The notes below the pieces were generated by a model that was not told where the DNA came from, made no database searches, and saw nothing but the letters and a program-made list of their open reading frames with translations. The position numbers and the translations under genes are program-made. From assembly GCF_040183065.1 (NCBI RefSeq), contig NC_091119.1, forward strand, positions 107,535,763 through 107,599,762: DNA of 64,000 nucleotides. Direction: 5' to 3'. This stretch comes from Periplaneta americana. Lineage: Eukaryota > Arthropoda > Insecta > Blattodea > Blattidae. Position 1 is the stretch's first letter. Each line of letters opens with the position of its first letter. Positions 3,436 to 63,720 of this stretch are shown piece by piece.

Positions 3436-6400
3436 TTATGGCGCACCGTAATATTCTTCTTGATTATCTTTCGCTGTTTCATCCACATTGAAGTGATGCT
3501 CCGATATTTTAGCGAGGGTTGGCACTCTACTGACTACTGGCCTATGTGGTTCGGTGGAATATTGGCGTCCTATAGAATCGACATCATGCTGGTTGTCTCT
3601 GACTTCTGGAAGTAGCCTTCTTCCCATTGCATTAGCTCTGTAAGATAATCTCTCCTGCACTCCACTTGTAAGATATTCGTACTTCGCAATCTTCTCTAAA
3701 CAGCTTCGTGCAGGAATCAGTGGCGGTTTCCTCGCTCGATCGCCCATCACATTTACTTCCGTATGCCTCTCTAAGGATGGTGCATTACGATTTCCCACAC
3801 AAACCTGATTGCGTTGATATACACCGGTCTCTGGGTGGTGTTTCATAATGTTCGGTGCATCTACAGACCGCCTCTGATCTGCAATAACATTTTTGTTATA
3901 ATTCTTGGAACTTTTGTGGTATATCAAATTCTGTTCATATTGTTCTTCACTGAGTTTTGTATACTGGGAATCATCTCTATCATTGATTTGCTCTTCTGGT
4001 TTGTGTGAGATATGACAACTATCATCAACATGATTCTCTTCTGAGAGCTTATTTCTGTGGTATTTTAAATCGTTGAATTTGTTCCCACTTATGGAATGAC
4101 TTTTATATGTTGGATCTGGGATTCGAACCGTGATATTTTTTAACCTCAGTTGCTCTGTAGATTGTGAAGACTGATAATCGTGGGTCCCGAACGTCGTATT
4201 TCCACTCATGCTCACATTGATATGGACTGCCTGGTCATAATATTGTTCCCTGTGAGGTGTATTTTCTTCGGAAATCCCTAATAAACTCTCTTTAACTGTT
4301 TGCTCGGAATTTACTTTTTGGCAAATTGTGAAAGTTGCACCTCGATCCGTTACACTTCTCCGTTTCGCTTGGTCTGAAAATTCATTTTGGCATTTGACTT
4401 CATAGTTTTCACTCAATGTGTGCTTTGGCGGAACTGTTGCTTCCTGCCATTGACTTTGATAAGGAGAACCATTATTCTTTATATTGACAACATAATTCCT
4501 TTGTTTCTCGTCCTTTGAGATTTGACTTTCATTTGTTGCGACACATGTTCTCACGGCGTCACTGACATAACGGTGCGTAATTTCTTTCTTGGATTGTCTC
4601 TCAACACCATACACTTTTCGAGAAGTGTCCAAATCCTGTTCTAAATGTATGGAATCTTCATATGATCTTATTTTTTCGGCGTTTTTGATGTCAGTATTCT
4701 TTATATACGTTTTCTCTTCGTTCCTAAAGCGATGTCTAATTTTTTCTTGGATTTGTGTAGTAGAAGAATTCTGTCTCAGTAAATTATCCAAGTTCTGATC
4801 CGCACTGATTAATTGTTTATCTATAACTTGTTTAATGTTCCTATTTATTTCCTTTTTTAAATTTCTCTCTTCTTCGTCACTGAAGCGGCGCTCAATTTCT
4901 TTCTGGGATTGTCTGGTAGCACAGTACTGCCTTTGATAAGTGTTGGAATTCTGGTCTATATTTGCGACAGTCTTTTTTCTTGTCATTAGTTCCATATTTT
5001 GATTGGTATTTATTGCGATACCCGTTCTATCGCCCTCGTTGCTATAACGACGACAAATTTCTTCCTGGGTGTGTATAGTAGTAGGGTGCCGTCCTTGATA
5101 AGTAATGGGATCCTGAACTACCCTGTCAACAGTTTTATGTTCTAGTGTTTGTTCCAACGTTTGATTGGTTTTTGTTTCGACATCAGGTCTATCGCCGTCG
5201 TTGCTATTGCGACGATAAATTTCTCCCTGGGACTGCACAACCGAAGGGTGCCGTCCTTCATAGTTAATGAAATCCTGAGCTAAGTTGCAAGAATTGTTAT
5301 TCCATACAATTTGTTCTGAATTTTGATTGGTAATTCTTTCGACACTTGTTCTATCGCTACAAACACTTGTTATTGCTTTTTGTGTGTTTGTGGTAGCAGG
5401 ATACTGCCGTTGATAAGTGTTGGAATACTGATCAACATTGATGATATCCTTATTTTGTATCATTTGTTCTGAATATTTATTGTCGCTTGCTTTAACATCT
5501 ATTCTGCCTTCCTCGTTCATATAGTGGCGTCTAAGTCCTTTCTCGGTTTGTGTGGTAGTAGGGTACAATCTTCGACAAGTGTTGGAATCCTGACTTCTGT
5601 TAACAATATTGTTATTTCCTGCCATTTGTTCGAAGTTTCCTTTATTTGTTTTGACATCTGTTTGATCTACCTCGTTGCCATAACGGCATCTATCTTCTTC
5701 CTGTTGCTGTATTTCTGTGGTAGCAGAGCACACTCTTTGATAACTGTTGGAATTCTGACTTTCATTGACACTTATATTTCCCACCTCTTGTTCGAAACTT
5801 TGGCATTTATTCATTTCTTCACTCTTGACCTCACTTGTTGCTTGTTCATGAGGTTTGGAGGCATCTCTGTGTTCATTCCTACAAACGTCTTTCATTTTCA
5901 TCGATGAATATTGGGAAGGTCTCACAAACAAAAGTTCACTTACCGAGGTGTTTTTCTGTTTGATTGACTTTCTAAGTGTCATTTCGGATTGACTAATGAA
6001 ACTTTTATCACCCATATTTGAATATCTAACTGTCTTCTTTTCTTTATGAGGTAATTGAGACATCTCTTCTTCTCCTACGGCCTCATTTCCATTGACAATG
6101 CGTTTTGAAGACTTTTTTACGCAAGATTCTATGGGATTGCTTCTTTCTGTCATATTTGAATATTCGAACATGTATTGTGTTTCTTTTTTATAATCTTGAT
6201 CTCCGGTCTGTGTAATTTCTGCCTCACTTATTTTTCGATAAATTTCATCTGGAATCAAATTCATGGCCAAGTTTTCGTTTGAGATTTCATCCGGATACCC
6301 TCTTCTTTCCGGTTGATGCTTTTGATAGCATGTGGGAAATAAGTAATTTTTTATTTGTTGGTCACTAACCTTTTCTGAAGGTTGATTCTCAAAATATTTT

Positions 6401-6988
6401 AACATAATCAGTTTATCAACAACACCAGTATCGTCAAGTCTTTGGTTGCCACCCAGACTTTGCCTTGAAAGTATGTTCTGCATGTAAATGTATACCTTCT
6501 TTCCTGGGTGTTCAGACTTTGACTTTTCCAATCTGCTTCTAGTGCTAAGAGTTGACATCGAGTCTATATTTGAAGATGGTCGGTTGACAGTATCTGAACA
6601 ACTGCTTTCCTCTTCTCGCAACTTACGATATCCAGAAGAAGACAAGCTTCTAGAAACTCGACGCATTGTGACGCTGGATTTGGTCTCTCTGGTTTTGAAT
6701 TTATCATTGGTCATGCGTTGCTTGGGGCACGATCTCGTATGTTTCCGTCCTCTGACTGGCAGAAGCGTCAGATCGGTGTCCGATGAGCTTCTGGAGGTGT
6801 AATCGGCCCCAGCCTTTAGTCTCATGGACCTCATGAGTCTCTGTTCACTGGCCTCCACCTCCTCATCCGACCCTAGAATTATGCGAGCTTGAGGCGACCT
6901 GATCATGCGCAGCATGTTCTCCAGCTTGTCCTGCTGGGTAAGATGGCCATCCTTGAATGTCCTCAGCACGCTCTGGTACAAACCAAAT
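3436..6988 (-). CDS. Last exon: cytoplasmic tail of the TSP1/LamG/Ig membrane protein
   Basis: A 3,553-base terminal exon encoding 1,183 residues and the TAA stop. The acceptor is TTTTTGCATAG before ATTTGG; its single leading base completes the AAA codon left by the transmembrane exon, so the frame is continuous. The first 130 residues are a conserved-looking juxtamembrane region rich in acidic/basic helices and serine clusters. The middle (about 4450-5840) holds roughly eight degenerate repeats of 54 residues (162-bp period), each with motifs like YQRQYPATTxTQ, a basic/acidic RRYSNEGDR stretch and a short EQ linker. The last 120 residues are non-repetitive, contain RKPPLIPARS (an SH3-ligand-like proline motif) and end in EEYYGAP. 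Being after the membrane helix, the whole tail should be cytoplasmic. No catalytic domain is visible. It is hydrophilic and probably disordered, with many S/T/Y residues that could be phosphorylated (inference). Confidence 0.85.
4450..5840 (-). repeat. In-frame 162-bp tandem repeats in the cytoplasmic exon
   Basis: About eight units of 54 codons, most easily seen by the recurring plus-strand GTGGTAGTAGGGTAC-like blocks at 5390 and 5552. Divergence between units is substantial but the frame is kept throughout, which argues for translated and constrained sequence. Confidence 0.8.
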
Positions 6989-7870
6989 CTATGCAAAAAT
7001 ATGCATCAATCAAAATAAAAAGCAATCAAATCTCCGGATTATGATTTCTCATTTTACAAATCAATGATATTCTAACGGTTCTTCCGCATACGTCAACCTT
7101 TCCAAATGACAAGTAACCTATTGTGGTGCTTAACTGTTGGATCTGTTACTAAGACCTGTTCTCCAGATCTGACTCAGTAGCTTATAGTAACATATTCAAC
7201 AGAGAGGTTCCCCCTTTCCTTTATGATGAAGCCTTTATGTAGGTTCGAAACGTTCGATGTCTCTTCATCTATGACACGGTGCAAATACCCACAAATATTG
7301 CATCACATCATGAATATCTCAAATGATGCTTAAGGTAACACTGAGCAGCAGTGAACATATTTCACTAAGTAGGATGCATCTAATACAGATTTTAGTGCCT
7401 AATTGGATCCTAAAATCAGTTTCTTTCTACCAGAATTCAGTTTTATAGGAAATCATTTTTGAAGTTAATAACAATGTTTCTGGTGTAGTATTTCGCGATT
7501 ATATTGCTTTGAAATTGGGTATTAAAATAATGTAATAAAAATAATATAATATATTCATATCTACATACAGATGGCAAGGTCCTCAAGGATCCCTTAATTT
7601 CTACTTAATTTTCGAAACATTTTATACTTTCATTGCCCTCTAATTAAGGCACTGTAATTCGTTAAGGTAATTTTCTTATCAATCATTCCATCTTTCTTAG
7701 ATCAATCCTAAGCTCAAAACTAACCATTTGTTTTCCAGCCATCATTTTTTTATTATTAATTTCCTGAACCTCGAGCAGGTATTCGGTCGAACCGACATTA
7801 ATAAGTTTGCAATGTTATCTTATACGAAACGGTCACTCAACAGTTCTGCTGCTGTAATCACATTTATGGA
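6989..7870. other. Intron sequence, nothing specific recognised
   Basis: Left part of the intron between the transmembrane exon and the last exon. It is A+T-rich, with no bounded element before the hAT target-site duplication at 7873. Confidence 0.5.
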
Positions 7871-11577: not shown

Positions 11578-11668
11578 GTAGTATTCTAGCTCTCGTTCAG
11601 CATTAAAGCAGAACATGGTAATTTATCGGCACTAGCAGGTTGCAAGTGTCCTTAAATTCAATACTAAC

Positions 11669-11783
11669 TTTTCGTTCTTGTACCAGAACGTATCCACTAC
11701 TACATAGGTGACATAAAGGATGCATACAAGAACAGCAACCGCTCCCACGGCCTCCATGGCTTCTACGGGAACAGTATTGAATT
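11669..11783 (-). CDS. Transmembrane exon of the TSP1/LamG/Ig membrane protein
   Basis: A 115-base exon, too short for a simple open-frame scan. The acceptor is ATATTGTTGCAG before AATTC and the donor is GTTAGT after GAACGAAAA. It has two leading bases, 37 full codons and two trailing bases. The leading AA joins the G left by the Ig exon (GAA) and the trailing AA joins the A of the last exon (AAA). The peptide contains a hydrophobic helix, AVGAVAVLVCILYVTYVVVD, followed by the juxtamembrane stop-transfer residues TFWYKNEK. With TSP1, LamG and Ig domains before it and a charged tail after it, this makes the protein a type I single-pass membrane protein. Phase agreement on both sides and the helix make this a confident call despite its size. 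Confidence 0.9.
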
Positions 11784-11844
11784 CTGCAACAATATAAAAT
11801 GGGTGCTTGGCTTAGCAGTCAACTATAATACTCGAGTGTATCAG

Positions 11845-14384: not shown

Positions 14385-14699
14385 CTACTGCTGGGTCAAT
14401 GACGGTAACGCCGAACGCCACGTAGTTTCGTCCCTTTCCACCACTTAAACGATGCACCCAGCAAGTGAAGAAACCCTCGATTGTGTCGCGGCTAGGGTAT
14501 GACGCTGCCCTCAGGTGCGTCAGACTGCCATCGTCCGTTATACTGAAAGTGGCCTTACCAGAAGCCTTCACATGCAATGGCACGTCCAAGTGCAACCAGA
14601 ATGCCTCTTTCGTCTTGCTGCGTCCCTTGCCAGGGGGATTATAGAAGCAAGTCAGATTGAGTTGCTGGCCCAACAGCACTGGAATCTCCACATACTTGT
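14385..14699 (-). CDS. Ig-like domain exon of the membrane protein
   Basis: A 315-base exon with acceptor TTTCCTCATTCCAG before ACAAG and donor GTGAGT after GCAGTAG. The structure is two leading bases, 104 codons and one trailing base. The domain shows the Ig pattern: LNLTCFY (first cysteine), a tryptophan in EAFWLHLD about 19 residues later, and GFFTCWVH (second cysteine). It ends in VTVIDPAV just before the membrane exon, so it is the membrane-proximal extracellular domain. The upstream junction uses the GC donor at 27896. An exon with phase 1 on both sides is typical of shuffled extracellular domains. Confidence 0.85.
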
Positions 14700-14802
14700 C
14701 TGGAATGAGGAAAGAATGAGATGAATGCTGCAGCTAAAGAGATTCAGAGAGAAGCTGATTTTAATATTTTGAAATATTCAAAAAGAAATATACGTCATTT
14801 GT

Positions 14803-27340: not shown

Positions 27341-27890
27341 TGTATGTGTGTCTGTGTGAAACATATAATATGTACAATTATAACAGATTACCAATAAGTA
27401 ATCTATAACACGGCATTATACTAATATAGTTTAATCCTGTCATTAAAATTAAATGTAATATAAAATTAATAAAATAATTACCCAAAAATAAAAACGTAGT
27501 CACACAATGGATGGGGTTTAAAGATCCGCTGTAACTTTTCCTCTTAATCGTTTCCAACTCAACTAGTTGGTCAGATATGAAGCCCCTACTGGTGCCAAAG
27601 GGTAAGATATCGTGCTGGTTGGTAATAATGGACTCTTCCCCAGGAAGCAGTAGCCAGTAAGCTTTAAGCGATGGCGGCGAATATGTGGAATGATGGTAAA
27701 AGGAAAGTATCTAGGAAGACTCTGGCCAGAACCACCTTTACCCACCACAAACTCATCTTCACAAGCATTGCAGTCTCCATTGTGCGCATCTGACGCTCTA
27801 CCCACTGGGAGAACGATGTGTCTAATTCACTAATTGCGACTAAAAATTTTGACGATTTACTTTACGATCTTACAATGCTAACTTCGTGGA
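27341..27890. other. Intron sequence, nothing specific
   Basis: The minus-strand frame at 27563-27805 has no recognisable domain. A possible tRNA-like remnant near 27760-27830 is too weak to call. Confidence 0.4.
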
Positions 27891-27895
27891 CTTGC

Positions 27896-28052
27896 CTGCG
27901 ATGCTGGCCGTGTGAGAAGAAAACTTGAAGCCACTGTCCTGCACTCTCGGGAGAGCATCAAGGTCCTCGGCGGTACCATCCACCGCCAGGTATCCTAACA
28001 CGCCCGTCAGGGGATCCAGCATCACGCCCGGATCCTCCTTCTTCAGCTGCGT
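27896..28052 (-). CDS. Linker exon between LamG and Ig domains; GC donor
   Basis: A 157-base exon with acceptor AATTCCACACAG before ACGCAGCTG and phase 0 at its start. It ends in GCATCGCAG followed by GCAAGTCC, a GC-AG intron donor with otherwise perfect consensus. One trailing base joins the AC of the Ig exon to make GAC. The peptide (TQLKKEDPGVMLDPLTGVLG at the start, ending HTASIA) has no domain I recognise and is probably the interdomain linker after the second LamG domain. An alternative acceptor six bases downstream would also keep the frame. Confidence 0.8.
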
Positions 28053-28089
28053 CTGTGTGGAATTTTGAAGTGTAGCACATTTTACTTTG

Positions 28090-34784: not shown

Positions 34785-35159
34785 TCTTAGCTGGAAATTC
34801 TCTACAATGTTACTTGACCGTGCCTCGATATCTCCGGAGACGTCCCCGATGACCATGTTACCACTGCAGGCCAAGGCGTCCAAGGAGGTGTTGTCAGGCA
34901 GAATCAGAGCGACGCGAGCGTCTCCGTTCACCGATAGACCCAGATCGCCGTCTTTCAGCGAGTGAACCAGCACCACATGCAGCCACTTGCCAGGCAGAAC
35001 CTCAACAGTACTCTCCGCATCGGAGCTGTTACCGCCCATCCGGACACTGAGACGCACGCGGCCGCCCACCAGCGCCGCCATCAGATGGTCCCCACGTGCC
35101 GAACCGGGCACGAACAGTAACAATGCGTTCTGGTCCTCAGGCTTCACAGCCAACTCCAC
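34785..35159 (-). CDS. Second half of LamG-like domain 2
   Basis: A 375-base exon, phase 0 at both ends, 125 codons. The acceptor is TATTCTGTAG before GTGGAG. It begins VELAVKPEDQNALLLFV (the LamG strand that reads 'A..LF.' in the family), continues with a glycine/arginine segment, GKWLHVVLVHS (the WH-V signature near the domain middle), then LSVNGDARV and a closing NFQLR. The previous exon ends DNWQ, so joining gives a normal LamG N-terminal strand order. The donor I choose is GTATTG after CTAAGA, which is weak; it is preferred because it gives the phase needed by the next exon and keeps the closing strand. Extracellular, probably ligand- or carbohydrate-binding by family. Confidence 0.85.
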
Positions 35160-36535: not shown

Positions 36536-36861
36536 ATCAAACATTCTGTAACGCGAGTCGTAGGCATGGTATGTTAGACTATGGCGCTATGGTGCAGGCC
36601 TACTAGGAGTAAATTATCAGTTGGATCCTTTGTAATCGTAGCAACATCAGTTCACAGCATCATCATTTCAAATTATTTTTACAGCCAATGTCATACGTCA
36701 TAGACAGTTCAGTGTAATGATTTAATGAGACCCATGACGAGCTGAATAGCGAGAACAGATCATTGGCGCATTCGGAATGTCAATGATAGTCCAAGAATTA
36801 AGACAAAATCTGCCGCTCCGGAGATGGAATATCTGTACCGTAGTTACAAGTGTTCACTTAC

Positions 36862-37008
36862 CTGCCAGTTGTCGGGGTTGGCTGGGCAGGGCACTCGGAT
36901 CGTCTCCTTGCCGACTAGATGAACGAAGCCCTCTTCCTTGTCGGCCACCTGGTACGTGGCGCTGGAAGTAGAGTAGGGTGCAGCACCTACCTGCTGCGAC
37001 ACGTCTCC
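36862..37008 (-). CDS. First half of LamG-like domain 2
   Basis: A 147-base exon of 49 codons, phase 0 at both ends. The acceptor is AAAATCTCAG before GGAGAC and the donor is a strong GTAAGT after AACTGGCAG. The peptide has GFVHLVGKETIRVPCPAN and ends in PDNWQ; followed by the next exon (VELAVKPED) it forms a LamG-like start. The codon usage is G+C-rich compared with the A+T-rich intron on both sides, supporting coding function. Confidence 0.85.
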
Positions 37009-38699: not shown

Positions 38700-39285
38700 A
38701 AGTTAGACTAAAGGCTGAATACCTTAGATAAAAATCTCATTTTCGTAAAATCTCATACTTTTGCACTTCGTGGAACCTACTGTACATATAACAATGTCCA
38801 ATTTTAATTTGCCTGTAATGCACTAACTCTGAGGTTATTGGGGTTCATTCAAGTTGTCCTCTATCTTTGTATTTTCTGTCTATTGCAATAGTAGTCTGAA
38901 TAAAATATAGTTATAATTTCATAATCAGTTACATCGCAAAAATGCATTGTCTCACTATCTGCATTCCTACTGTTTCGTGATTTCAGTAATGGAAGCTTAC
39001 GCAGCTTGAATTAATTAAAGATACTCATATGTAAAAGATAAAGTCAAGATGTCTTTCATCGGCATGAGTGTCAATAAGGTAGCGTGGTGATTTTATAGGC
39101 TTGCATGTCCTTCCTCAGGTAAGGAAATAGTTTGTTTTCAATGCAAATACATCGTGTCCCGCTTAGAGGGATCGAGAAATAAATGCTCATCACTTAATAC
39201 CAGATAAAAATATTGTTGTGATTTACATCTGACAAAATAGAGAAACTGTCCAGGTTTACGCAACAAAGTCTGAAAACGTAACTTT
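38700..39285. other. Intron sequence, nothing specific
   Basis: Unremarkable A+T-rich sequence with no bounded element or frame worth calling. Confidence 0.4.
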
Positions 39286-39289
39286 CGTT

Positions 39290-39720
39290 TGTTTGTTGCT
39301 AAAACAAGTCTGGCGCCATTTTATAGGAGAACACGTCATAGTCAACATGTGGACATCAGAAAGTTCAGTGTGTGCTATGGCTAGCAGAAGAAAAATCTAT
39401 TACGCGAGTACAACGCCGTGTTCATCATACATGGAGAGGTGGATCGGAAGACGAGGACCAGTTGCCTGGCCAATCAGGTCACCCGATCTGACCTCCTTGG
39501 GCTTGTTTTCTGAGGCTTTGTGAAGGATGCTGTGTACTAAAGAAGCAGAGCTAACACTTTGGAGGAACTAAGACAACGCATCACAAATGCAGCTGCGCTA
39601 GTGACTCCACAAATGCTACAGAACACTTGGCGGGAGGTTGAATACCGTCGTTTAGATGTCTGCAGAGCAACTCAAGGCTCACACATCGAGTTGAATTCAG
39701 CATTCTCCGAAACTCGGAGA
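39290..39720 (+). pseudogene. Mariner-like (DUF4817-family) transposase C-terminal pseudogene
   Basis: The reading ERWIGRRGPVAWPIRSPDL (39430-39490), then after a frameshift LEELRQRITNAAALVTPQML and VEYRRLDVCRATQGSHIE (39559-39690). This is the same family as 12007-12387 but from a different copy. The catalytic context SPDL is kept, the following LDFFLWG is corrupted. No TIRs were assigned. Confidence 0.75.
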
Positions 39721-40620: not shown

Positions 40621-41153
40621 GTATAAACTTTCTTGTTATTTCTTAATATAATGTTACATGACTTAACCTGATGTTGTTCCACCTGAGGTAAAAATTAGTA
40701 TCTATGCAGATGATATGGGCTACGAACAATGATCCAAATAAAACATTCTACCTCGTTAAACTAAAAGTTTAAATATCTCCCAACAATTATATAATTACAT
40801 CAGTGATAAATTAAAATTGAAATAAAAACTCTTTGGAAGCGCCATAACCATATGTTCTTCTGTGCAACTTGGTGTGGGGTGGAGTGATTGGTACTTTTCT
40901 ACTGGCCTCAGACTTTCTCTTAAAGCAAGCTTGCTATAGCCTAATGTGTTCACTATATCGTATCTAATTTTGAATAGAAAACACGGTAAGGATTTTTTCA
41001 TAGTTATAGGGAAGATACGGTGTTTAAAAATGTGTTATAAATAAGAATAATCCTGAGATACTTTTTCTAGAATTTTTTTAGAGAAAGCTCTGCCTTAGAA
41101 CCTATGCCCACGATCCGCGCCTTCTAATACTACAAGAAATAATAGCGTTTCAC

Positions 41154-41406
41154 CTGCAGGGCCTCCCTGCGTAGGCGCAGTGGACTGTAGTTCAATGTGA
41201 TCTGCTGAATCTGTCCCTTGAAGCGCTCGCCAACTCGCATTGTTTGGTCCAGCTGAGGTAACACAGGCTCGCAGTTGAAATGCGCATGCGCTCGCTCCGG
41301 CGTGTCGTCCACTCGCAGCGTTATTGCTGTGCCTTCCACCGTGAATAAGACATTGTGCCATTCCGCCATCTGCGCATTCAGTTCCACGACATCATTACTA
41401 ACAACC
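41154..41406 (-). CDS. Second half of LamG-like domain 1
   Basis: Ends in CTGCAG before GTGAAA (phase 0). The peptide has AEWHNVLFTVEG (the LamG WH-V signature), ITLRVDDT, a cysteine in FNCEPVLP and closes with FKGQIQQITLNYSPLRL, the conserved F.G.I....L ending of LamG. Two acceptors are possible (GTGAG before G-GTT at 41406, or GTTAG before T-AAT at 41397). Both leave one extra leading base, which does not fit the phase-0 donor of the upstream exon at 45203. Either a small exon of 3n+2 bases is missing, or there is a one-base error or mutation. The domain call is firm; the 5' junction is not. Confidence 0.75.
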
Positions 41407-45146: not shown

Positions 45147-45202
45147 AGATAAATTCAGCCACTAAAAATCTCGCTGACTCTTTTATTATTAAATGAACTC
45201 AC

Positions 45203-45462
45203 CTGAAGTTTGTCTGTACTAACAGTTGCGGCGGCGCAGCCCGACACCAGAGCGCTCAACACCAGAAAGCCGCCCTCCAGCGACAGTGTCACATAATCGC
45301 ATCCAGGCCCCATGCAGGTGTCGTGATAGCGGTGCACGAGCACACCAAACGAACTAAGTGGCAGGAAGCGCAAGTACATATGCAGTAGACGCGACGGACG
45401 GCCAGACGACGTGTAGAGCAGCGCACCGTTCCCCGTCAGAGTCACCACCTCGTGCGTCTTCA
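45203..45462 (-). CDS. First half of LamG-like domain 1
   Basis: A 260-base exon with acceptor TATGGCGCAG before TGAAG and a perfect GTGAGT donor after CTTCAG. Two leading bases (TG) join the G left by the third TSP1 exon to make GTG; 86 codons follow. The peptide runs from KTHEVVTLTGNGALLYTS through FGVLVHRYHDTCMGPGCDYV to LEGGFLVLSALVSGCAAA, with the LamG alternation of strands and four cysteines. High G+C against A+T-rich flanks supports coding function. Confidence 0.85.
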
Positions 45463-45714
45463 CTGCGCCATACAGATCCGTCATAATTATGTTAATAGGT
45501 GAATGATAATGATAGAGCGGATCGAATATCGGGACGGGACTTATCTAAAGATGATTTATCCTTGTAAGAACAGGATTGAATGAAAACTGAACCCTGATTC
45601 CTATCTTGAGCAGTCGTTCGCTTTCTGACTTCGTCACGACTGAAACACTTGCTGTTAGAGTATTTCCATGACTCATCTCTATACAAACGCGTGTTGCCTT
45701 GTCATTGATTTGCC

Positions 45715-47985
45715 ATGGAAATGTCACCTTACAGAGATTCCATGACAATTGTTATTTTCATTGCCTTACAGAGATGTCGTGGAAATATGTTTCATCTTCT
45801 AACCAATTTGCAATGGAAATGTGTTTCATTCCTCACTAAGTTACCATGGAAATATGTTTCATCGTACCGACTTTCCATGGAAGTGTGTTTTATTTCCTCA
45901 TTAAAATGTATTTTTCAACCAAATTTCTACCAGGGAAATATATGTTTGATTGCCTCACTAATGTGTGTTTCACTGTCTAACCAAATTTACGTGAAAATAT
46001 GTTTCATGTTCTCACCAACTTTCCAAGTAAATGTGTGCTTCATTGTTGCCATGGAAATATGTGTTTCAATGATCTACTCACTGTCATATAAACACGTCTT
46101 TCACATTGCACTGAGTTGTCATGGATAAGTATGTTTCATTTACTCGACAAGTTGATATGTAAATGTATATATTTTGTATGAAAATTTACTCGTCTCACTG
46201 ACGTTTCTTAGGAATGTGTTTACTTTCTCACTGAGTTGCCATAGAAAGGAGTGTTTCCAATTCTCTCCAAATTAGCCGAAAATGTACGTTTCATTGCCTT
46301 GTCGAATTGCTATAGGAATATAACTTTCATTGCTTCAGTAAGTTGCAATGGAAATGTGTGTTTCATTTCTTGCCTGAGATAACATGCCAATGTGTGTTTC
46401 ATTGTCTCATCGACTTTCCATGGAAATGTGCGTTTTATTGTATCACCAACTTGCTATGGGAATGTAACTTTCACTGTTTCAGTAAGTTGCAATGGAAATG
46501 TGCGTTTCATTTCCTACCTAAGTTAACATGGAAATCTGTGTTTCATTATCTCACCGACTTGCTATGGGAAATATAACTTTCTTTGTTTCACTAGGTTGCA
46601 ATACAATTACGCGCTTCATTACCTGCCTGAGTTAGGATGAAATGTGTGTTTCATTGTCTAACCAACTTGCCATGGAAATGTGCGTTTCATTTTCTGCCTC
46701 AGTTAACATGGAAATCTGTGTTTCAATGTCTCACCGACTTGCTACGGAAATGTAACTTCCCTTGTTTCACTAAGTTGCAATAGAAATGTGCGTTTCATTA
46801 CCTGCCTGAGTTAGCATGGAAATGTGTGTTTCATTGTCTAAAGCCTGGTTCAGACGGTGCTAGTTTCTGTGATGGATTCCAAGGTGGCTGCACTGATGGC
46901 TGCCCACCGTGCTCACTGGCTGGCTCCCGTGTTGCCTACGATGATGGTAGTTGTTCACACGGAGCTGGCTCTTTTCACAGTTCAAATTGGAAAATCATCT
47001 GCTGTTTCATCTGTTGCCAACACTCATGGTCAAAAAGAAACTAAACCGTGAGTGGAAAACAACTAAAGTCCTACATTAACAGTAGTAAATGTCGTAATAA
47101 AGTAATTAAGCCATAAGTGCAAAACAGCTAAAGTCCGATATTTAATTGTCGTTTCTTAGAAACTAACGAATGTAGAAAAAAACAGGTTTAGTTGAAAAAC
47201 AACGAACATGGCGACATGGTTTCAGTGGTGATATTATATGATCATCTTTGTTTTCCAGCCTGCAAACCATCACGAAAAATAGCAAGGAACCTACCCCCGA
47301 AATCCAGCAAGCTAGCCATCCACGGAGCCACCAGAGCGCATTACTCCCGGCAAGTGACCACGCAGGCTACCCATCCGCGCAGCCACCTTGAAATCCATCA
47401 CAGAAACACGCACTGTCTGAACCAGGCTTTACCGACTTGCCATGAAAATGTGTATTTCATTGTATCACCGACTTGCTATGGGAATGTAACTCTCAGTGTT
47501 TTAGTAAGTTTCAATGGAAATGTGCATTTCATTTCCTGCCTAAGTTAACATGGAAATCTGTGATTCATTGTCTCACTGACTTGCTATGGGAATGTAACTT
47601 TCATTGTTTCACTAAGTTGCAATAGAAATGTGCGTTTCATTACCTGCCTGAATTACCCTGGAAATGTCTACATGGAAATGTCTGTTTCATTATCTCACCA
47701 GCTTGTTATGGGAATGTGACTTCCATTGTGTCAGTAAGTTGTAATGGAAATGTGCGTTTTATTTCCTGCCTGAGTTAACATGGAAATGTGTGTTTCATTG
47801 TCTCATCGGCTTGCTATGGAATGTAACTTCCACTGCTTTAGTAAGTGGCAATGGAAATGTGCGTTTCATTTCCTGTGAGTTAACATGGAAATGTGTGTTT
47901 CATTATCTCACCGACTTGCTATGGAAATTCGTGTTGTCTCAACTCGTGAAGTTACAATATTGAAATATGTGTTGTTTTATCAAGT
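45715..47985. repeat. Degenerate minisatellite, 36-39 bp sub-unit, about 2.3 kb
   Basis: The sub-unit is like CATGGAAATGTGTGTTTCATT followed by GTCTCACCGACTTGC. Sub-units group into a higher-order repeat of about 150 bp (…ACTTGCTATGGGAATG-TAAC… then …TTTCAGTAAGTTGCAATGG…). It is interrupted at 46841-47429 by a TIR element. Many short open frames on the plus strand reflect the repeat and not genes. Confidence 0.88.
46841..47429. mobile_element. TA-flanked TIR element, 589 bp, inside the minisatellite
   Basis: The left end AAGCCTGGTTCAGACGGTGC and the right end GCACTGTCTGAACCAGGCTT; arms extend about 50 bases through GTGATGGATT-CAAGGTGGCTGC. TA duplicates at 46839-46840 and 47430-47431. The interior has no transposase. 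The first bases resemble those of the element at 50633-50858 (AAGGCTGGTCCA). Confidence 0.9.
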
Positions 47986-48133: not shown

Positions 48134-48304
48134 CTGCGCAAGGTCGCTCGAAGCAGTGGCGCACCTCGGTGACGAGTCCGGAGCAAGGGTTGCCGGAGCC
48201 CTGAGGCGGGGGCGCGCTGCAAGTCCTGCTCCGGGCCTGGGCGCCCAGACCGCATTCCGCCGAGCAGGAACTCCACACTTGCCACGAAGACCAACCACCA
48301 TCCA
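48134..48304 (-). CDS. Third TSP1 repeat exon
   Basis: A 171-base exon with acceptor TTTATGGTGTAG before TGGATGG and donor GTAACT after TTGCGCAG; two leading bases, 56 codons, one trailing base. It encodes a complete thrombospondin type-1 repeat: DGGWSSWQVWSSCSAECGLG (tryptophan ladder and the CSxxCG motif), then RSRTCSAPPP, NPCSG, TEVRHC and FERPC, giving six cysteines in the normal order. TSP1 repeats bind glycosaminoglycans and receptors outside the cell and are often C-mannosylated on the tryptophans and O-fucosylated at CSxxCG (family knowledge). The phase 1/phase 1 exon is standard for shuffled TSP1 modules. Confidence 0.93.
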
Positions 48305-52840: not shown

Positions 52841-52945
52841 CTGAACAGTCTTTCCTCTGGCACTCCTCTGTCTCCTGCCCGGGTCCTGAACACATACTGC
52901 TGTCGAGAGCACGCAGGGGTCGCTGCGCCTCGCTGCCAAGTGATT
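52841..52945 (-). CDS. Second half of the split TSP1 repeat
   Basis: A 105-base exon missed by ORF-length filters. The acceptor is TATCTTGGTTACAG before AATCAC and the donor is GTGTGT after TGTTCAG; two leading bases, 34 codons, one trailing base. Joined to the G of the giant exon it gives GAA. The peptide ends MCSGPGQETEECQRKDCS: the C-terminal half of a TSP1 repeat with cysteines 4, 5 and 6 (the usual C-G....E...C....C pattern). The first three cysteines are at the start of the giant exon (60400-60520 on the plus strand), so the two exons together make one TSP1 domain with a very long loop. Confidence 0.88.
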
Positions 52946-54789: not shown

Positions 54790-55690
54790 ATCGATTTTAT
54801 GAACACTGTAACAAAAATTTGGCCAAAAATGTGTATTTTATCATTGATTAGGCATAGTTTTTAGTTGCGTTGTTTGGAATTACAACTATTCTTGAGTAAG
54901 TTTTTCCCCCCACACCAGAAAACAATGGCCTTGCCTCTGCTAAATGAATTGGCTTTATTCAGTGTTACTGTCAATGTAGTAGACACTAATCGAGCTTACT
55001 GAGACGATTTAGAACTCTAAATGGATTAAGGTATGGTTCCTGCAATTTACCGTCATTGTGGAAGTTTGTAAAAAATTGAAGAGACAATTTCGTGACAGAT
55101 AAAAAAATGTTGTGATAGACCAAAATCCGTAGAAAACGGTGTGAATACTGAGATGGTTTCACACACGGTCCAGACAAAGTTCAAAATGTGGAACATGCAG
55201 TGTGAATCAAGTTCCGAGGCGACAAAAGATGAGCTATTATGGCGTATTCTTAAAAATTAGTTTATACCTGCTACGCAGCGGAAAAAGAGTGATATTTGAA
55301 ATTCTCCGCTACTCTGACAAACAGTGTGCATACATTGGAATCGAACTGTACCTATTTGGGGAGGGCGGACGTGTATATGGTTTGATTTCATAAACAAACC
55401 ACTACTCAAGCAGCTTTAACTGCTCTCTTTTCATAGCCCGTTATAACATTCATTTACATTGAAAATCGACATTAACACAAACACGTGATTTTGTATCGTA
55501 GGCCTCTGCTTGACAGTTATTTACAGTGTTGCCGACCCAAGGCTCCAGCTTTCTATGTAGATGGCTCTGGATATTTCCTTGAAAACAATACTGTGTCTTA
55601 AAATCAATCTGGCCTATTTTTAACAAGAAAATAGAACATCGACTGATGGTCACATAATCATGTATTAGTAAGGAACTCTTAGTAGACCTA
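54790..55690. other. Intron sequence, nothing specific
   Basis: A+T-rich, unbounded. Short open frames at 54986-55177, 55202-55393 and 55450-55653 match no family I know. Confidence 0.4.
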
Positions 55691-55698
55691 CCACTTAC

Positions 55699-58600
55699 CA
55701 GAATACATAGAAAGGTCCAATTCCTTATCCAGTGTATTCTCTGGTTCCTCTATCTTCTCATTCATCCAGTTTTCTGGTTTCCTGACCTCTTTATTTAACC
55801 TGTTCTCTTGTTTCTTCATCTTCTCATCCATCACGATCTCTGGTCTCTTCATTTCCTTTGCTGGTTCCTTCATTTCTTTGTGAGTCTTATTCGCTGGTCT
55901 TTTGACCTTCTCGTTCATTATGTTCTCCACTTCCTTAACATTCTCACGTGTCTTGTTATCTGATTTCTTAACAGTTTTGTTTCCTGGTTTCCTATCCTCC
56001 TTATTCAACCTGTTCTTTTGTTTCTTCATCTTCTCATCCAGCACGATCTTTGGTTTCATCATTTTCTTTGCTGCTCTATTATTTGCTTTCTTCATTTCCT
56101 TGTGAATCCTGTTCTCTGGTGTTTTGACCTTATCATTTGTTTTGTTATCCAGTTTCTTATCATCTTCATGTGTTCTGTTCTCTGATTTCTCAACAGTTTT
56201 GTTTCCTGGTTTCCTCACGTCTTTATTCAACCTGTTCTCTTCTTTCTTCATCTTTTCATTCATCATGATCTCTGGTTTCTTCATTTCGTTTGCAGTTCTG
56301 TTATCTGGTTTCTTAATTTCCTTGTGAATCCTGTTCGCTGGTCTTTTGACTTTCACCTTTATTCTGTTCTCTAGTTTCTTAACAGTCTCGTGTGTCCTGT
56401 TATCTGAATTCTTAACAGTTTTGTTTTCTGATTTCCTGTCCTCCTTATTCAACCTGTTTTCTTGCTTCTTTATCTTCTCATCCATCACGATCTCTGGTCT
56501 CTTCATTTCGTTTGCTGCTCTATTATCTTCTTCTTTCATTTCCTTGTGAATCCTGTTCTCTGGTATTTTGACCTTATCGTTTATTTTGTTATCTAGTTTC
56601 TTACCATCTTCATGTGTTCTGTTCCCTGATTTCTCAACAGTTTTGTTTTCTGGTATCCTCACGTCCCTATTCAACCTGTTGTCTTGCTTCTTTATCTTCT
56701 CATCCATCATGTTCTTTGGTTTATTAATTTCCTTTTCTGTTCTGTAACCTAGTTCTTTCATTTCCTCTTGAGTCCTGTTCTCTGGTGTCTTCACTTTTTC
56801 GTTTGCATTGTTCTCTAATTTCTTACCATCCGCATGTGTCCTGTTACCTGATTTTAAAACAGTTTTATTTCCCGGTTTTCTCATCTCGTTAGTGAACCTG
56901 TTCTCTTGTTTCTTTATCTTTCCATCCATCATGATATCTGGTTTCTTCATTTTATTATCTGTTTTGTTTTCTGCTTCCTGCATTTCCTTTTCAGTTCTGT
57001 TATCTGTCAATTCTTTGCGAACCCTATTCTCTGGTGTCTTGAACTCAGTTTTTTTGTTCTCTAGTTTCTTACCATCCCCATGTGATCTATCATCGGATTT
57101 CTCAACCGTTTTATTTCCTGGTTTCCTTACCTCCTTGTTCAACATATTCTGCTGTTTCTTCATCTTCTCGTCCATCATGATCTCTGGTTTTTTCATTTCA
57201 TTATCTATTTTGTTGTCTACTTTCTTCATTTTCATGTGTATCCTGTTCTCTGGTGTCTTGACCTTTCCATTTGTTTTGTTCTTTACTTTCATAACACCCC
57301 CATGTGTCCTGTTCTCTAGGTTTTCAATTGTTTTATTTTCTGATTTTCTTACTTCCCTATTCAATATGCTCTCTTGCTCTTTCATCTTCTCATTCATTAC
57401 GATCTCTGGTTTCTTCATTTCTTTATCTGTTCTGTTGTCTACTTTAATTTCTTTGTGAATTCTGCTCTCTGGTATCTTTATCTTCTTACCGTCCTCATTT
57501 GTGCTGTTCTCTAGTTTCTCAACCGTTTTGTTTCCTGGTTTTCTCACTTCCTTATTCAAACTATTCTTTTGTTCCTTCATCTTCTCATTTATCACGGTCT
57601 CTGGTTTCTTCATTTCTTTACCAGTTCTATTGTCTGTTTTCTTTATTTCTTTGTGAATAATGTTGTCTGGTGTCTTGACTTTCTTGTCATGCTCATGAGT
57701 CCTCTTCTCTAGTTCCTCAACTGTTTTGTTTCCTGGATTCCTCACTTCCTTCTTCAACCTGTTTTCTTCTTCCTTAATCATCTTACTCATCACTATCTTT
57801 GGTTTCTTCATTTCCTTATCTATTCTTTCATCCACTTTCTTCATTTTCTTTTCTGTTATGTTATCTGGTACCTTTTTCATCGTTTTATTTGTGCTGTTCT
57901 CTCGTTTCTTACCATCCTCATCTGTCTTCTCCGGTTTCTTATCCGATTTGTTTCCTACTTTCTTCAACTTATCATTTATGTTCTCTGATTTCTCTATTTC
58001 CTTATTTGTCTTGTCTCCTGTTTTATCTACGTAATTATTCGTCATGCTGTCTCGTTTTTTCATCTCTTCCGTTCTTATATCAGGTTTCTTTATCTCCTTA
58101 TCAGTTTTGATCACTGGTTTGATAGACATCTTAACCGTGTTATTCTCTGACTTTTTTGCCCCATCCTTTCCTAACTCTATTTTCGTCACCTTCTCAATTA
58201 TCCTGTTCTTTGATTTTTTCTCCTCCTCATGCGTCCTGTTCTCTGTTTTCTTCACCTCATCCATCCTTTTCTTTGATTTATTCACCAACTTATCTGTCAT
58301 GTTCCCTGTTTTATTCACCTCAAGAATTGTGATATGGGGTATCTGTACTCCATTATTCATTGTACTCTGTGGTTTCATCATCTCTTTAATCGCCTTGTTC
58401 TCTGGTTCCTTCATCTCCTTATCCGTCCTCATCTCTGGTTTCTTCCCCTCTTCCATATACCTACGAGGTTTCGTCACCTCATCTATCCTCTTTTCTGATA
58501 TCTTCACCTCCTCACGTGTTATTTTTTCTGTTTCATTTAGCTCAACCATCCTGTTCTCATGTTTCTTTACTCCACTATTCATCCTGAACTGTGGTTCCTT

Positions 58601-60522
58601 AATATCGTTATCCATTATGACATCTGCTTTCTTTTCTCTCTTAATTCTCCTCTTATCTGATACATCTATTTCGTTCATTCTGACTTCTGGTTTTTCCATT
58701 CTCTTGCACTTTCTGATCTGTGGTTTCATGACCTCTTTAATGAACTTTATCTTTGGTTTCTCTATCTCCATGATCATTCGGTTTTTTGGTTCCTCTTCGT
58801 CACCCATTCTCATGTCTGATTTTTCTGCCTTTTTCATTCTCCTGTTCCGTGATGACACTATTTCGTTCATTCTCACTTCAGGTTTTTCAACTCGCTTACA
58901 CATTCTGATCTGTGGTTTCATGATATATTTAAAAAGCTTTATCTCTGGTTTCTTTACCTCCATAACCATCCTGTTTTGTGGTACCTCCTTGTCACTCATC
59001 CTCACGTCTGATTTTCTCGCCTTCTTGATTATCCTGTTCTCCGATATATCTATTTCGTTTATCCTGACTTCTGGTTTTTCCATTCTCTTACACTTTCTGA
59101 TCTGTGGTTTCATGACTTCTTTAATAAACTTTATTTCTGGTTTCTCTACCTCCATGATCATCCTGTTTTTTGGTTCGTCCTCGTCACTCATCCTCATGTC
59201 TGATTTTTCTGCTTTTTTAATTCTTCTGTTCCCTGATAACTCTATTTCGTTCATCCTGACTTCACGTTTTACCACTCGCTTACACATTCTGTTTTGTGGT
59301 TTCACAATAAGCTTTATCTCTGGTTTCTCTACTTCCATGACCATTCTGTTCTTCATTTTGTCCTTATCCATCCTAAAGTTTGGTTTTCCCGCCTTCTTAA
59401 TTATTCCTTTCGTTTGTTTCTCCAAATCATTACTTTTCCTGTCTGGTTTCTCTATTTCTTTAAACATCCCATTCTGTAGCTTCTCTACCCCATTCTCACC
59501 TATGTTCAATTTCTTCACCCCCTTATTCCTATTTACTCTGATCTGTGGTTTCATCGCCTCCGTAATAATTATCTCTCGACTCTTCATATCCACGTTGTGC
59601 TTTGACTTCTCCATCTCATCCATCCGTATATCTGGCTTTTTCACCTCCTTAATGATCCTATTCTTTAGTTTGTCAACGTCATCCATCCTGTCCTCAGTCT
59701 TTTTTATCTTCCCATTTATTCTGATCTGCGGTTCCATCACCTCTTTACTCGCCTTTGTACTTGTTTTCTTCACCTCCTTAACCACCCTATTTTCTGGTTT
59801 CTCTATTTCATTCATCCTAAAATCTGGTTTGAGAGTCTTCTCATTCTTACTATGCCATGGCTTCTTCATCCGTTCTATCCTGATTTCTGGTTCCTCTAGC
59901 CCCTTAATCATTTTGTAATTTGGTCTCTCTATCTCTCCCATCCTGGTGTGCGGTTCCTGCACCTTCTTAACTATTCCGTTCTTTTCTTTCTCTACCTTAT
60001 CCATCCTGACCTCTGTCTTCTCCAATTTCTTAATCACCCCTTCCTTTTCTTTCTCTATCTTATCCTTCCTCATCTCCGGTTTCTTCACTTCCTCTGTCAA
60101 TCTGTTCTTTGTTTTATCCATCTTCATATACATTCTGGTTTTTGGTTTATCCCAATTACCCACGATGATGTCCGTTTTCTCCATCTCTTTAAGCATTCCG
60201 TTCTCTTTTCCTATCTCTTTAATCATACTATTTTCTGATTTCTCCATATTCTTGTTCTTATTTTCTTCTGATTTCTTTACCTCCTCATTCATATGGTTCT
60301 CATGTTCTCTTATCTCCCTACCCTTCCTGCTATCTTGTTTTCTTAATTCACCCATCCCATATTTTGCTTCCTCCAACTTAAGACGTCTCTGCCAGCTATT
60401 TATTTCCTCATTATCTTCCCTTTTTTCTGGTTTCTTCAGACACTCCCTTCGCCTCCATCTGATGCCTGGTCCACATTGCACATTGCAATCAGACCACTTG
60501 GCCCAATTGGACCAAACTCCAT
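55699..60522 (-). CDS. Giant exon: first half of a TSP1 repeat plus about 1,570-residue charged tandem repeats
   Basis: A single 4,824-base exon: acceptor TTTTTGTTACAG before ATGGAG, donor GTAAGT after TATTCTG; two leading bases, 1,607 codons, one trailing base. It opens with DGVWSNWAKWSDCNVQCGPG and RRREC: the tryptophan ladder and first three cysteines of a TSP1 repeat. The rest is low-complexity K/E/P/N/M-rich sequence built from an 11-13-residue theme (KKPENRMxKEV). In the middle, four units of 64 residues (exact 192-bp spacing: 58713, 58905, 59097, 59289) carry MKPQIRKCKRMEKPEVR, each with one cysteine except where changed. Towards the end are about nine units of 65-74 residues (222-bp spacing among the last ones) with MKKPEIVMxEKMKKQENRLN and GNKTVEKSENRTH, rich in N-x-T glycosylation sequons. 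No catalytic or membrane segment. Because TSP1 closes in the next exon, this is an insertion in a TSP1 loop facing the extracellular side. Confidence 0.88.
55760..57850 (-). repeat. In-frame tandem repeats, 222-bp class, about nine units
   Basis: Plus-strand CAGTTTTGTTTCCTGG-type blocks occur at about 55975, 56197, 56419 and further upstream, 222 bases apart for the most similar units and somewhat shorter (about 195-220) in the older ones. Each unit encodes K-P-E-rich text with two to four N-x-T/S sequons. Confidence 0.85.
58620..59380 (-). repeat. In-frame tandem repeats, 192-bp class, four units
   Basis: CTGATCTGTGGTTTCATGA-type blocks at 58713, 58905 and 59097 and the diverged one at 59289 lie exactly 192 bases apart. 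Alternate units are more alike (first and third; second and fourth), suggesting duplication of a 384-bp dimer. Confidence 0.85.
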
Positions 60523-60733: not shown

Positions 60734-60913
60734 TCTGTCTCGGCGCGCAGGCTACCCCAGTGCAGTCCTTTTTCTCCATGGTGGATCCCTTACACAACAG
60801 ATCGGGAGTGGAAGGTGTTGGGTTAGTACAGTTTCGTCGCCTGTACTTGCTGCCCAGACCACAAATGGCACTGCAGGGCGACCAGGCACTCCACTGAGTC
60901 CAGCCACCACGAA
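60734..60913 (-). CDS. First TSP1 repeat exon in the window
   Basis: A 180-base exon: acceptor GAAAGAATGTTTCAG before TTCGTGG; two leading bases, 59 codons, one trailing base. It encodes GGWTQWSAWSPCSAICGLGS, KYRRRNC, DLLCKG and KKDCTGVAC: all six cysteines and the tryptophan ladder of a complete thrombospondin type-1 repeat. I choose the donor GTGAGC after CCGAGACAGA, because it gives phase 1 for the next exon; joining makes AAT (Asn) before GVWSNW. A GTAGCC donor further upstream would break the frame. Two leading bases show that at least one more exon lies upstream, outside or near the window edge; no signal peptide or start codon was found. Confidence 0.9.
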
Positions 60914-61280: not shown

Positions 61281-61814
61281 AGAGCTGTTTGAATGTAGAC
61301 GTTACATTCTTAATCATAACATGGCCAACATTGAATAAGTTTATAATTAAATTCACGTTTAACATTACTTTTATACAGCAATTCCTTTGTTTTTTAGAAC
61401 TTTGAACATGTATTTATATTAGGCGATTGTCATTATGGCCATGACTAAAGTCCATCCACTGTTAATATGATCCTAACATAAACAAACCCCAATTGCATCC
61501 TTCCGCCATTCGCGCCGTAATTACTATCACATTGACAGGGAGCACGTGTGAAGTGAATTATGGCATGTGATGTAAGTACGGTACGCAGTATATTAGCGTA
61601 ATAAACGAAGTAAAATACAATGTGACGTACTCTATATAGAATTAGTTACTATTAATAGTATTAATAGTAGTAAGAGGTTTAGTCAGTAATTTAAGGGGTT
61701 AGGTACAGCTTAAAGCAGTAAAATTTTGGAAATATTTAACATGTTTGTCCTCCATTACTGTATTTTGTACAATAATGAAAATTAGTATGTGTAAAACACT
61801 GCCCTTCTGCTATA

Positions 61815-61816
<2 letters not shown>

Positions 61817-61860
<44 letters not shown>
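61817..61860. repeat. (TA)n microsatellite
   Basis: About 22 uninterrupted TA units immediately before the LINE fragment. Confidence 0.97.
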
Positions 61861-61865
<5 letters not shown>

Positions 61866-62985
61866 CCAAATATCTTGGAGTTATTTTCGATAGTAAATTA
61901 ACATGGAGCAACCATTTGAAATACATTTCTGAAAAAGCTCGTAAAAGATTCTCCCTTCTAAAAAGACTAGCAGGAAAGAAATGGGGATGCTCTAGGAATA
62001 CTTTGAACACTACATACAAAATGTTTATACAGCCAGTGCTGATATACTGCGGAGAAATTTTAATTACTTCACCTTTCATAAACGACATAGAATATGTTCA
62101 AAACCAAGCTCTCAGACTCATTACTGGTGGAATCAAAACAACCCCAATAGATTCTATGAGATTCCTCACTAATATTAACAGTATCAAAATGACAATAGAA
62201 TATAAAGCACTGATTCAATATGAAAAACTTATCAGATTACCAGGAAACAATTGGCATTCATACAGTCCTCTCTGTAGATTGAAAACTCAAAAAAGTTTCA
62301 TATCCATTGTTCAAGAATTAAAACAGAAAATCAATATCCCGAATTTAAAATAAAACTTACAAATTAAACCAAACCCTTTAACTCTATTAAATATAGAATA
62401 TAATCTAAATTTAACAGAAGAAATACTGAAATCAGAAGTAAACATTGAAATACTGAAACAATTGTCTTTAGAGACAATTAATGTTAGGTACCCTCCACAA
62501 AACTGGCTTCATTTATACACCGACGGATCCTTGATCTCCAGAGAACAAGGTGCCGGTGCAGGTGTTACGTGCTGTCTCTTCTCACTTTATAGATCACTTG
62601 GATATGGAACAACAAGTTTTGATGGAGAAATCATTGCAATAAGTGAATGTCTCAGGAATCTTCTATGCCACATAAATAAATTTAGGAATGCAGTTATATT
62701 GTCAGACTCCAAAGCAGCTATTCTATCAATCGTCTCTAAACACACACCTTCATCTCAAACAGCAGAAATAACTAAAATGCTCTCTCAATTAATATCACTC
62801 AATAAAAGAATTGTATTCCAATGGATACATCCCATTGTGGAATCCTGGGAAACGAGAATGCAGATGCTTTAGCAAAGAAGGGCAGCACTGCTACTTACAG
62901 ACCTGTTACTAAATCTACGTATTACTCTGTGAAAAGATTTATTAAATCTACATACTTAGACTTCAACAAACAAAATTTGTTACAC
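61861..62985 (+). pseudogene. LINE fragment: end of reverse transcriptase plus RNase H
   Basis: It starts abruptly after (TA)n with KSKYLGVIFDSKLTWSNHLK, the thumb region of a non-LTR reverse transcriptase, and runs to 62353. RNase H follows (62462-62990), with the four acidic residues in place: the D in YTDGS, the E in DGEIIAI, the D in LSDSKAA and the D in NENADALAKKG. A stop near 62353 and a frameshift near 62830 break the reading, so it is a pseudogene. RNase H in a non-LTR element points to an I/R1-like or related clade (inference). The match to 37085-37205 ends at almost the same place (62950-62985). Confidence 0.8.
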
Positions 62986-63184
62986 AGTATATTATATACG
63001 CAGTACAAGTACGCCATAATTTTAAAAAGTTTAGATTTGCAACACTTACCTTTTATTCCGATTCCGGAAGTGGTTCTAATCGGAAGTGGTTCTATCCTAT
63101 CCGTATCTGTATAATTTTCAGTTCTTTCGTCACTATCACTACAGCTGCTTTCGTCACCAAGACTGTTTACTAATTTATCAACAA

Positions 63185-63720
63185 GAGTAGGTCTATCACT
63201 CAAAATTGTCCAGCTCCCAGAACAAAGCTTCTTCTTTCATAACGTGTTCGATGCATTTCTTCCAGCCATCTGCAGTCACATGTTTAATTGGCTCCTCAGT
63301 CAAGACCTCGACATCTCTAATCTTGAACGTTGTGTTGCGCTGTCTAACATAACCCTTCACCTGATTCCATATCATTTCTATAGTCATTTAATAAACAATG
63401 ACAAGGAGGCAGTCGCTGCACTGTCATGTTAGCCTGTAGCGCAAGAGAATCCACAATATATTTTCCTCTCGACTTATTCGCTAAAGTTCATCTTTTACTA
63501 TGTTTTTATTACACGGAATAGTTTGCTTCAATTCAGGCAATAATGTCATTTTTTAACCACGACCTATTTGGTAGCCGATCAGCTTTAACGCTATGAGAAG
63601 GAGCATTGTCCATGATTATCACACTATTGGGTTCGAGTTTCGGCAACAGTTTGGCGACAGAGCAACAAAAGACCCAGCCAGCACTTTCATCCATTTTGTT
63701 GCATCACAAGCGACTGAAGT
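63185..63720 (-). pseudogene. IS630/Tc1-type DDE transposase C-terminal remnant
   Basis: The minus-strand reading from about 63690 shows CDATKWMKVLAG and, after frame changes, VIIMDNAPSHSVKADRLPN (catalytic D), then near 63385 IEMIWNQVKGYVRQRN (end of the E-containing helix) and ALFWELDNFE before the stop. Several frameshifts. Termini were not found, and the left part may lie within the sequence around 63000-63185. Confidence 0.75.

Follow-up and report, generated by a model that had tools for sequence, protein, structure and literature searches.

The 64,000-nucleotide stretch of Periplaneta americana contig NC_091119.1 analysed here (the window) carries on its minus strand a gene in which one thrombospondin type 1 repeat (TSR; TSP1 domain) holds a very long array of short tandem repeats. 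The two halves of this domain, the third of four in the protein (TSR3), lie on successive exons in matching splice phase, and 1,598 residues separate its third and fourth cysteines, ~1,563 of them repeat. The locus probably corresponds to an uncharacterized single-pass membrane protein of insects, and in this species in-frame amplification would have filled the TSR3 loop; the array would be translated as a ~1,600-residue insertion in at least some transcripts and would form a charged, disordered arm.

Four exons, here called A to D, carry TSR2 to TSR4 (Table 1). The TSR3 head in exon B has the WxxWxxW strand A, Cys1-3 and CGxG, and matches Pfam TSP_1 (PF00090) with an E value of 6e-07 (open-frame residues 17–48, profile positions 1–32 of 49). 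Exon B spans 4,824 bases between the acceptor GTTACAG| and the donor CTG|GTAAGT, with phase 1 at both ends, and exon C (acceptor GTTACAG|, donor CAG|GTGTGT) joins it in phase 1. Exon C by itself gave no Pfam match; it was aligned by tblastn to the Cys4-6 half of TSR3 in Blattella, Timema and Anabrus, and the two halves fused without the repeat match TSP_1 with an E value of 5.1e-09. Exons A and D are whole TSP1 repeats. Spliced together, exons A, B, C and D give 1,759 codons with no stop. Within exon B the coding frame has no stops, the remaining sense frames have 187 and 173, and the antisense frames have 77, 40 and 11. An initial annotation had placed the first three cysteines of a TSP1 repeat at the start of exon B and Cys4-6, in phase, on exon C, and the splice sites, the joined frame and the Pfam match bear this out; its estimate of about 1,570 repeat residues and its claim of a frame kept open for 4.8 kb agree with the counts obtained here. 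The comparison of the two halves with orthologues, set beforehand as a test, places both in TSR3 and thus in one TSP1 domain, with the insertion in the Cys3-Cys4 loop, as had been proposed. With this spacing of Cys3 and Cys4, TSR3 of the locus departs from the compact size of 50–60 residues of TSP1 domains.

Table 1. Features of the gene, in coordinates of the window.
Feature	Coordinates	Strand	Remarks
Exon A: TSR2, complete TSP1 repeat	60734..60913	-	11-residue Cys3-Cys4 loop; phase-1 donor A|GTGAGC, weak
Exon B: TSR3 head (WxxWxxW, Cys1-3), then repeat array	55699..60522	-	1,607 codons, 0 stops
Repeat array	55718..60406	-	mostly 10/11-residue units, consensus about KKPENRMNKEV
Higher-order unit, ~64 aa	58634-59329	-	inside array
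Higher-order unit, ~74 aa	55700-57808	-	inside array
Exon C: TSR3 tail (Cys4-6)	52841..52945	-	105 bases
Exon D: TSR4, complete TSP1 repeat	48134..48304	-	11-residue loop
LamG-like domain 1, first part	45188..45466	-	edges approximate
LamG-like domain 1, second part	41142..41372	-	edges approximate
Exon between LamG-like domains	36859..36993	-	edges approximate
LamG-like domain 2	34818..35159	-	edges approximate
Conserved exon 5' of Ig-like domain	27873..28064	-	edges approximate
Ig-like domain exon	14386..14706	-	edges approximate; by eye and alignment to orthologues, no Pfam Ig match
Open frame with candidate transmembrane exon	11634..11811	-	resembles transmembrane segment of Schistocerca P0116 by eye
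Cytoplasmic-tail exon	6835..6993	-	edges approximate
C-terminal end	3448..3537	-	60% identity to Timema C terminus over 30 residues

Among the insect orthologues, the Cys3-Cys4 loop of TSR1, TSR2 and TSR4 is 11 residues long in 52/52 cases. The TSR3 loop exceeds 11 residues in all 18 records, with lengths of 15 (11 lepidopteran-kind relatives), 30 (Blattella), 37 (two Timema), 46 (Anabrus) and 50 (three Schistocerca isoforms); these counts include isoforms (the three are of one Schistocerca gene) and congeners, and come from gene models in which single values may be wrong. The TSR3 count leaves out Timema P0110, P0111 and P0133, which are without a TSR3 head; also set aside were an alignment (A3) with nested rows and a wider loop survey in which large values jump across domains. 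Two further relatives with TSP1 and LamG, clam P0065 and sea urchin P0130, were not counted; some of their TSP1 loops have 4, 7, 10 and 18 residues, excluding values that jump domains. None of the TSP1 loops measured in these records comes near the TSR3 loop of the window in length. The roughly 30-fold growth in the initial annotation stands when whole domains are compared; by loop, the factor is ~145 relative to the usual 11 residues and 32–53 relative to the polyneopteran orthologues. Because TSR3 loops vary from 15 to 50 residues while those of TSR1, TSR2 and TSR4 stay at 11, the insertion occupies the only loop in this protein whose length had been variable before, and that loop grew 30-fold or more. 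No orthologue with a longer loop was found among 52 listed public proteins, in a search that also missed Timema P0011, so its absence is unproven.

A cyclic 11-state profile applied from residue 38 onward divided the array into 156 segments, of which 126 have 10 or 11 residues. Units of 11 and 10 residues alternate strictly in residues 134–250 and more loosely further on, and the autocorrelation peaks include 11, 21, 22, 64 and 74. Tandem Repeats Finder reported repeat lengths of 192, 198 and 222 bp, with copies matching at 76–80%, and three-unit stretches of the array share 52–59% identity with each other. The P. americana assembly PAMFEO1_priV1 was built from HiFi reads (3.23 Gb, 91 scaffolds; PMC12774602). 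An assembly artefact is unlikely, because the assembly rests on HiFi reads and the repeat copies have widely diverged.

The origin of the array was sought both in the genome and in the loop itself. A 435-residue part of the ~1,563-residue array was searched against the own genome (3,231,669,367 bases in 91 contigs), and its sole match was exon B, with 97 of 1,699 candidates scored. On this result, the idea that the array had come from another place in the genome was rejected. The start of the loop, KKPEKREDNEE, scores 17.8 on the unit profile, where array units average 26.0 with a minimum of 13.5. Its first 18 bp match 14 sites of the array with 2–3 mismatches, and no site in the remaining window comes that near. 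These figures hint that the array may have derived from the loop's own start. This is no more than a hint because the score is just 1.6 for the Blattella counterpart of the loop start and as high as 17.2 for an unrelated stretch of P0020.

The substitutions between repeat copies carry a codon structure. Changes from the unit consensus at the three codon positions number 78/81/147 in the 74-aa block (10 copies) and 23/14/31 in the 64-aa block (4 copies), the two blocks of the array covered by the codon-position tests and by the ratios of nonsynonymous to synonymous substitution rates (dN/dS). Four non-coding arrays of the window are flat by position (15/13/13, 25/19/20, 39/34/34 and 17/16/13). 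The median dN/dS between copies is 0.32 in the 74-aa block (45 pairs) and 0.30 in the 64-aa block (6 pairs), the pairs not being independent because the copies have a common history. In a neutral simulation, with changes matched in number and kind but placed neutrally, the 74-aa block acquired 11.9 stops (standard deviation 3.4) and none of 2000 runs was stop-free. The 64-aa block acquired 3.4 stops and 2.6% of runs were stop-free, so that the absence of stops alone is a weak argument there. No stop is observed in either block. The third-position excess and a dN/dS of about 0.3, unlike the pattern in the four non-coding arrays, indicate that the array evolved as protein and was kept as such after its copies diverged. 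The intron 3' of exon D also holds tandem arrays, at 46307-47935, with a 36-bp unit and longer higher-order periods; codon structure was absent in the stretches tested.

The array consists of 28% Lys+Arg and 20% Asp+Glu, with a net charge of +0.087 per residue and charges more evenly mixed than in shuffles. At 48% charged residues, the array agrees in composition with the charged segment envisaged by the initial annotation. The four cysteines of the array all lie inside the 64-aa block. There are 35 N-glycan sequons, against 14.1 (standard deviation 3.3) expected, and none of 1000 dipeptide-preserving shuffles reached 35; sequon counts are not independent, because the copies have a common history. 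The excess lies in the second half (29 against 13.4 expected, 0/1000 shuffles), and the first half shows no clear excess (6 against 2.9, 53/1000 shuffles). Of the 10 copies of the 74-aa unit, 9 retain an NKT sequon, and silent substitutions occur in its N and T codons. Hydrophobicity recurs most strongly with a period of 3.52 in residues 60–400, 3.70 in residues 884–1600 and 5.3 in the two middle blocks. Periods of 3.52 and 3.70 are compatible with an amphipathic helix, but the prolines in many units argue against long helices.

Several observations weigh against a translated arm. Blattella, likewise a cockroach, is annotated with a TSR3 loop of 30 residues. To this are added the common history of the copies behind the dN/dS and sequon figures, the small weight of stop absence in the 64-aa block and the sequon count of the first half. 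Two AlphaFold runs returned mean predicted local distance difference test (pLDDT) scores of 44.5 and 45.2 on alignments of 3 and 2 sequences. A stable folded solenoid was tried and rejected, with pLDDT low throughout and uninformative at 3 and 2 rows. The low-confidence models may be said to agree with disorder of the array, resting on those few sequences. Splice signals within exon B also count against the translated arm. Exon B contains 161 GT dinucleotides, and five cryptic donors (one scoring 6.42 and four scoring 5.47 by the donor matrix used) exceed the 5.31 and 5.12 of the true donors in exons C and D. Weak in-phase donors follow 171 and 201 bases of exon B (0.8 and 2.4; the exon A donor scores 0.91) and would yield stop-free loops of 47 and 57 residues, near the 46 of Anabrus and the 50 of Schistocerca.

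These signals lead to the most serious rival, in which the main mRNA would use an early exon B donor, giving a loop of 47–57 residues, and the array would be a rare or tissue-specific extension. Such alternative 5' splicing would be compatible with the best explanation, and later in-phase donors could give a ladder of loop lengths. Among the cryptic donors of exon B, six of the top seven share the phase of the true donor, four of them being a recurring motif ATG|GTAAGA, and the two weak donors stand in phase directly after the head; loop shortening by donor choice is therefore possible. We nevertheless consider early-donor use as the main form somewhat doubtful, since the true donor, at 6.95, exceeds every cryptic donor in exon B and the constraint on the array implies that it is translated at least sometimes. 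An inner intron within exon B is unlikely, because only one AG in the exon is preceded by a tract of at least 60% pyrimidines.

Other readings find less support. Exon B might sometimes be the last exon, so that the protein would consist of TSR1 and TSR2 followed by half of TSR3 with the repeat, and would have no membrane anchor: the frame continues past the exon B donor to a TAG three codons on (55688-55690), and AATAAA or ATTAAA motifs occur at 54959 and 54787. Such motifs are common by chance in A+T-rich DNA, the donor at 55699 is strong, and Cys3 would be left unpaired, which makes this end very improbable. It is slightly less credible still that the sequence past the head is a non-coding, purine-rich minisatellite open by chance, like intronic arrays elsewhere. 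A precedent exists in a pyrimidine-rich minisatellite 5' of a TSP1 exon (L015, G000:C6:164500-167200), probably intronic and open for >200 codons in three frames; in contrast, exon B is open in one sense frame alone and its substitutions have the codon structure that the four non-coding arrays do not. Finally, the loop could be cleaved near its start, leaving an arm free at one end and held by disulfides. A Lys-Arg pair at loop positions 5-7 is common to the window and four polyneopteran genera (Blattella, Timema, Anabrus and Schistocerca). However, in a loop this rich in lysine a dibasic pair says little, lepidopteran loops were seen without it, and no R-X-K/R-R stands at this place, the three in exon B lying in strand B and at two places in the array; we regard cleavage as improbable.

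A translated insertion in TSR3 thus remains the preferred explanation. Under it, a 30/33-bp unit would have been amplified in tandem and in frame within the TSR3 Cys3-Cys4 loop, between strands B and C, followed by later amplification of 192- and 222-bp higher-order units. The resulting ~1,600 residues would be translated in at least some transcripts. TSR3 would still fold, with the ends of the loop held by a Cys3-Cys4 disulfide. Cys3 pairs with Cys4 in group 1 TSRs, and on this ground the array would be closed into a loop; the literature passages found name Cys2-Cys6 only. The array would then be a closed, strongly charged, net-positive, partly N-glycosylated and mostly disordered arm. It may act as a spacer or brush, and its surface may bind weakly to polyanionic matrix or to glycans surrounding the receptor.

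The array is comparable with several known systems. Late embryogenesis abundant (LEA) proteins have 11-residue charged repeats rich in Lys and Glu, and an 11-residue Lys/Glu-rich unit occurs in the array too. The array differs from them in being extracellular by its gene context, in the proline of many units, in the shorter units mixed in and in its N-glycan sequons. TSP1 repeats have three strands, with B paired with C (PMC10087229). Added residues between these strands are also found in properdin, whose TSR6 carries a protruding 'index finger' of 31 residues there; it is described as an 'unusual large insert' and participates in binding (PMC10087229). By analogy the array would leave TSR3 between the same strands, as extra protruding residues; the properdin insert is ordered, and the cited passages on properdin do not mention repeats. 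No title on a comparable TSP1 insertion, and no paper on this insect protein, was found among the open-licence papers listed.

If the translated arm is real, the locus shows how much chain the TSP1 fold accepts at one loop, and is a clear case of repeat growth within a folded domain and not between domains. An uncharacterized insect protein of receptor-like type would also bear a very long arm, charged and possibly glycosylated. The loops of 15, 30, 37, 46, 50 and 1,598 residues form a series at one orthologous position, and in-frame amplification is therefore testable in other cockroaches and in termites. More speculatively, and with considerable doubt, a small extracellular domain locked by disulfides may tolerate a closed loop of ~1,600 residues, amplified in situ at a natural point of variation, which selection might have tuned into a charged bristle on the cell surface with a regular N-glycan array in its distal half and a length settable by in-phase donors.

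The remaining gene is collinear with its orthologues. In tblastn, four orthologues gave collinear minus-strand pieces in the window, running from 60914 in TSR2 down to 3448 at the C terminus, and N-terminal orthologue parts located TSR1 and its linker 7.5–9.5 kb past the window end. Domain order and exon collinearity with the insect 4xTSP1-2xLamG-Ig-TM protein hold from TSR1 to the C terminus, the transmembrane (TM) segment being assigned by eye. The gene looks intact, with four TSP1, two LamG-like, an Ig, a transmembrane and a tail region, some exon edges being approximate, and the candidate transmembrane exon and the collinear gene support placement of the array at the cell surface; its protrusion there as a flexible segment, put forward in the initial annotation, is still an inference.

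Orthologues of this architecture are Timema P0011, Blattella P0008 (C0J52_12564), Anabrus P0007, Schistocerca LOC126335308 and Bombyx mandarina LOC114245334, which share with the locus the domain order, collinear exons, 11-residue TSR1, TSR2 and TSR4 loops and a longer TSR3 loop; they differ from it in having no repeat array. Proteins with TSP1, LamG-like and (by alignment) Ig-like domains among 50 listed were Blattella P0008, Timema P0011 and P0013 and Anabrus P0007, together with eleven lepidopteran-kind relatives (P0016-P0021 and P0023-P0027; five named Lepidoptera, six without a name). A second search (best 120 of 269) added the three Schistocerca isoforms and three more Timema. No termite orthologue was among the matches listed, one listing being the best 120 of 269.

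Other features were recorded by eye. At 61703-63432 on the plus strand, adjoining exon A on the opposite strand, open frames resemble pieces of a non-LTR (long terminal repeat) retrotransposon and include an RNase-H-like stretch. Another locus (L014, G000:C12:152342500-152350500) has a single open frame of 1,105 codons for an ADAMTS-like protein that combines a protease motif with TSP1 repeats; it may be a retrocopy or a gene with few introns. Two open frames of the window, at 12010-12387 (minus strand) and 39233-39520 (plus strand), have in common the motif GPVAWP.RSPDL, which we take to resemble one of mariner-type transposases.

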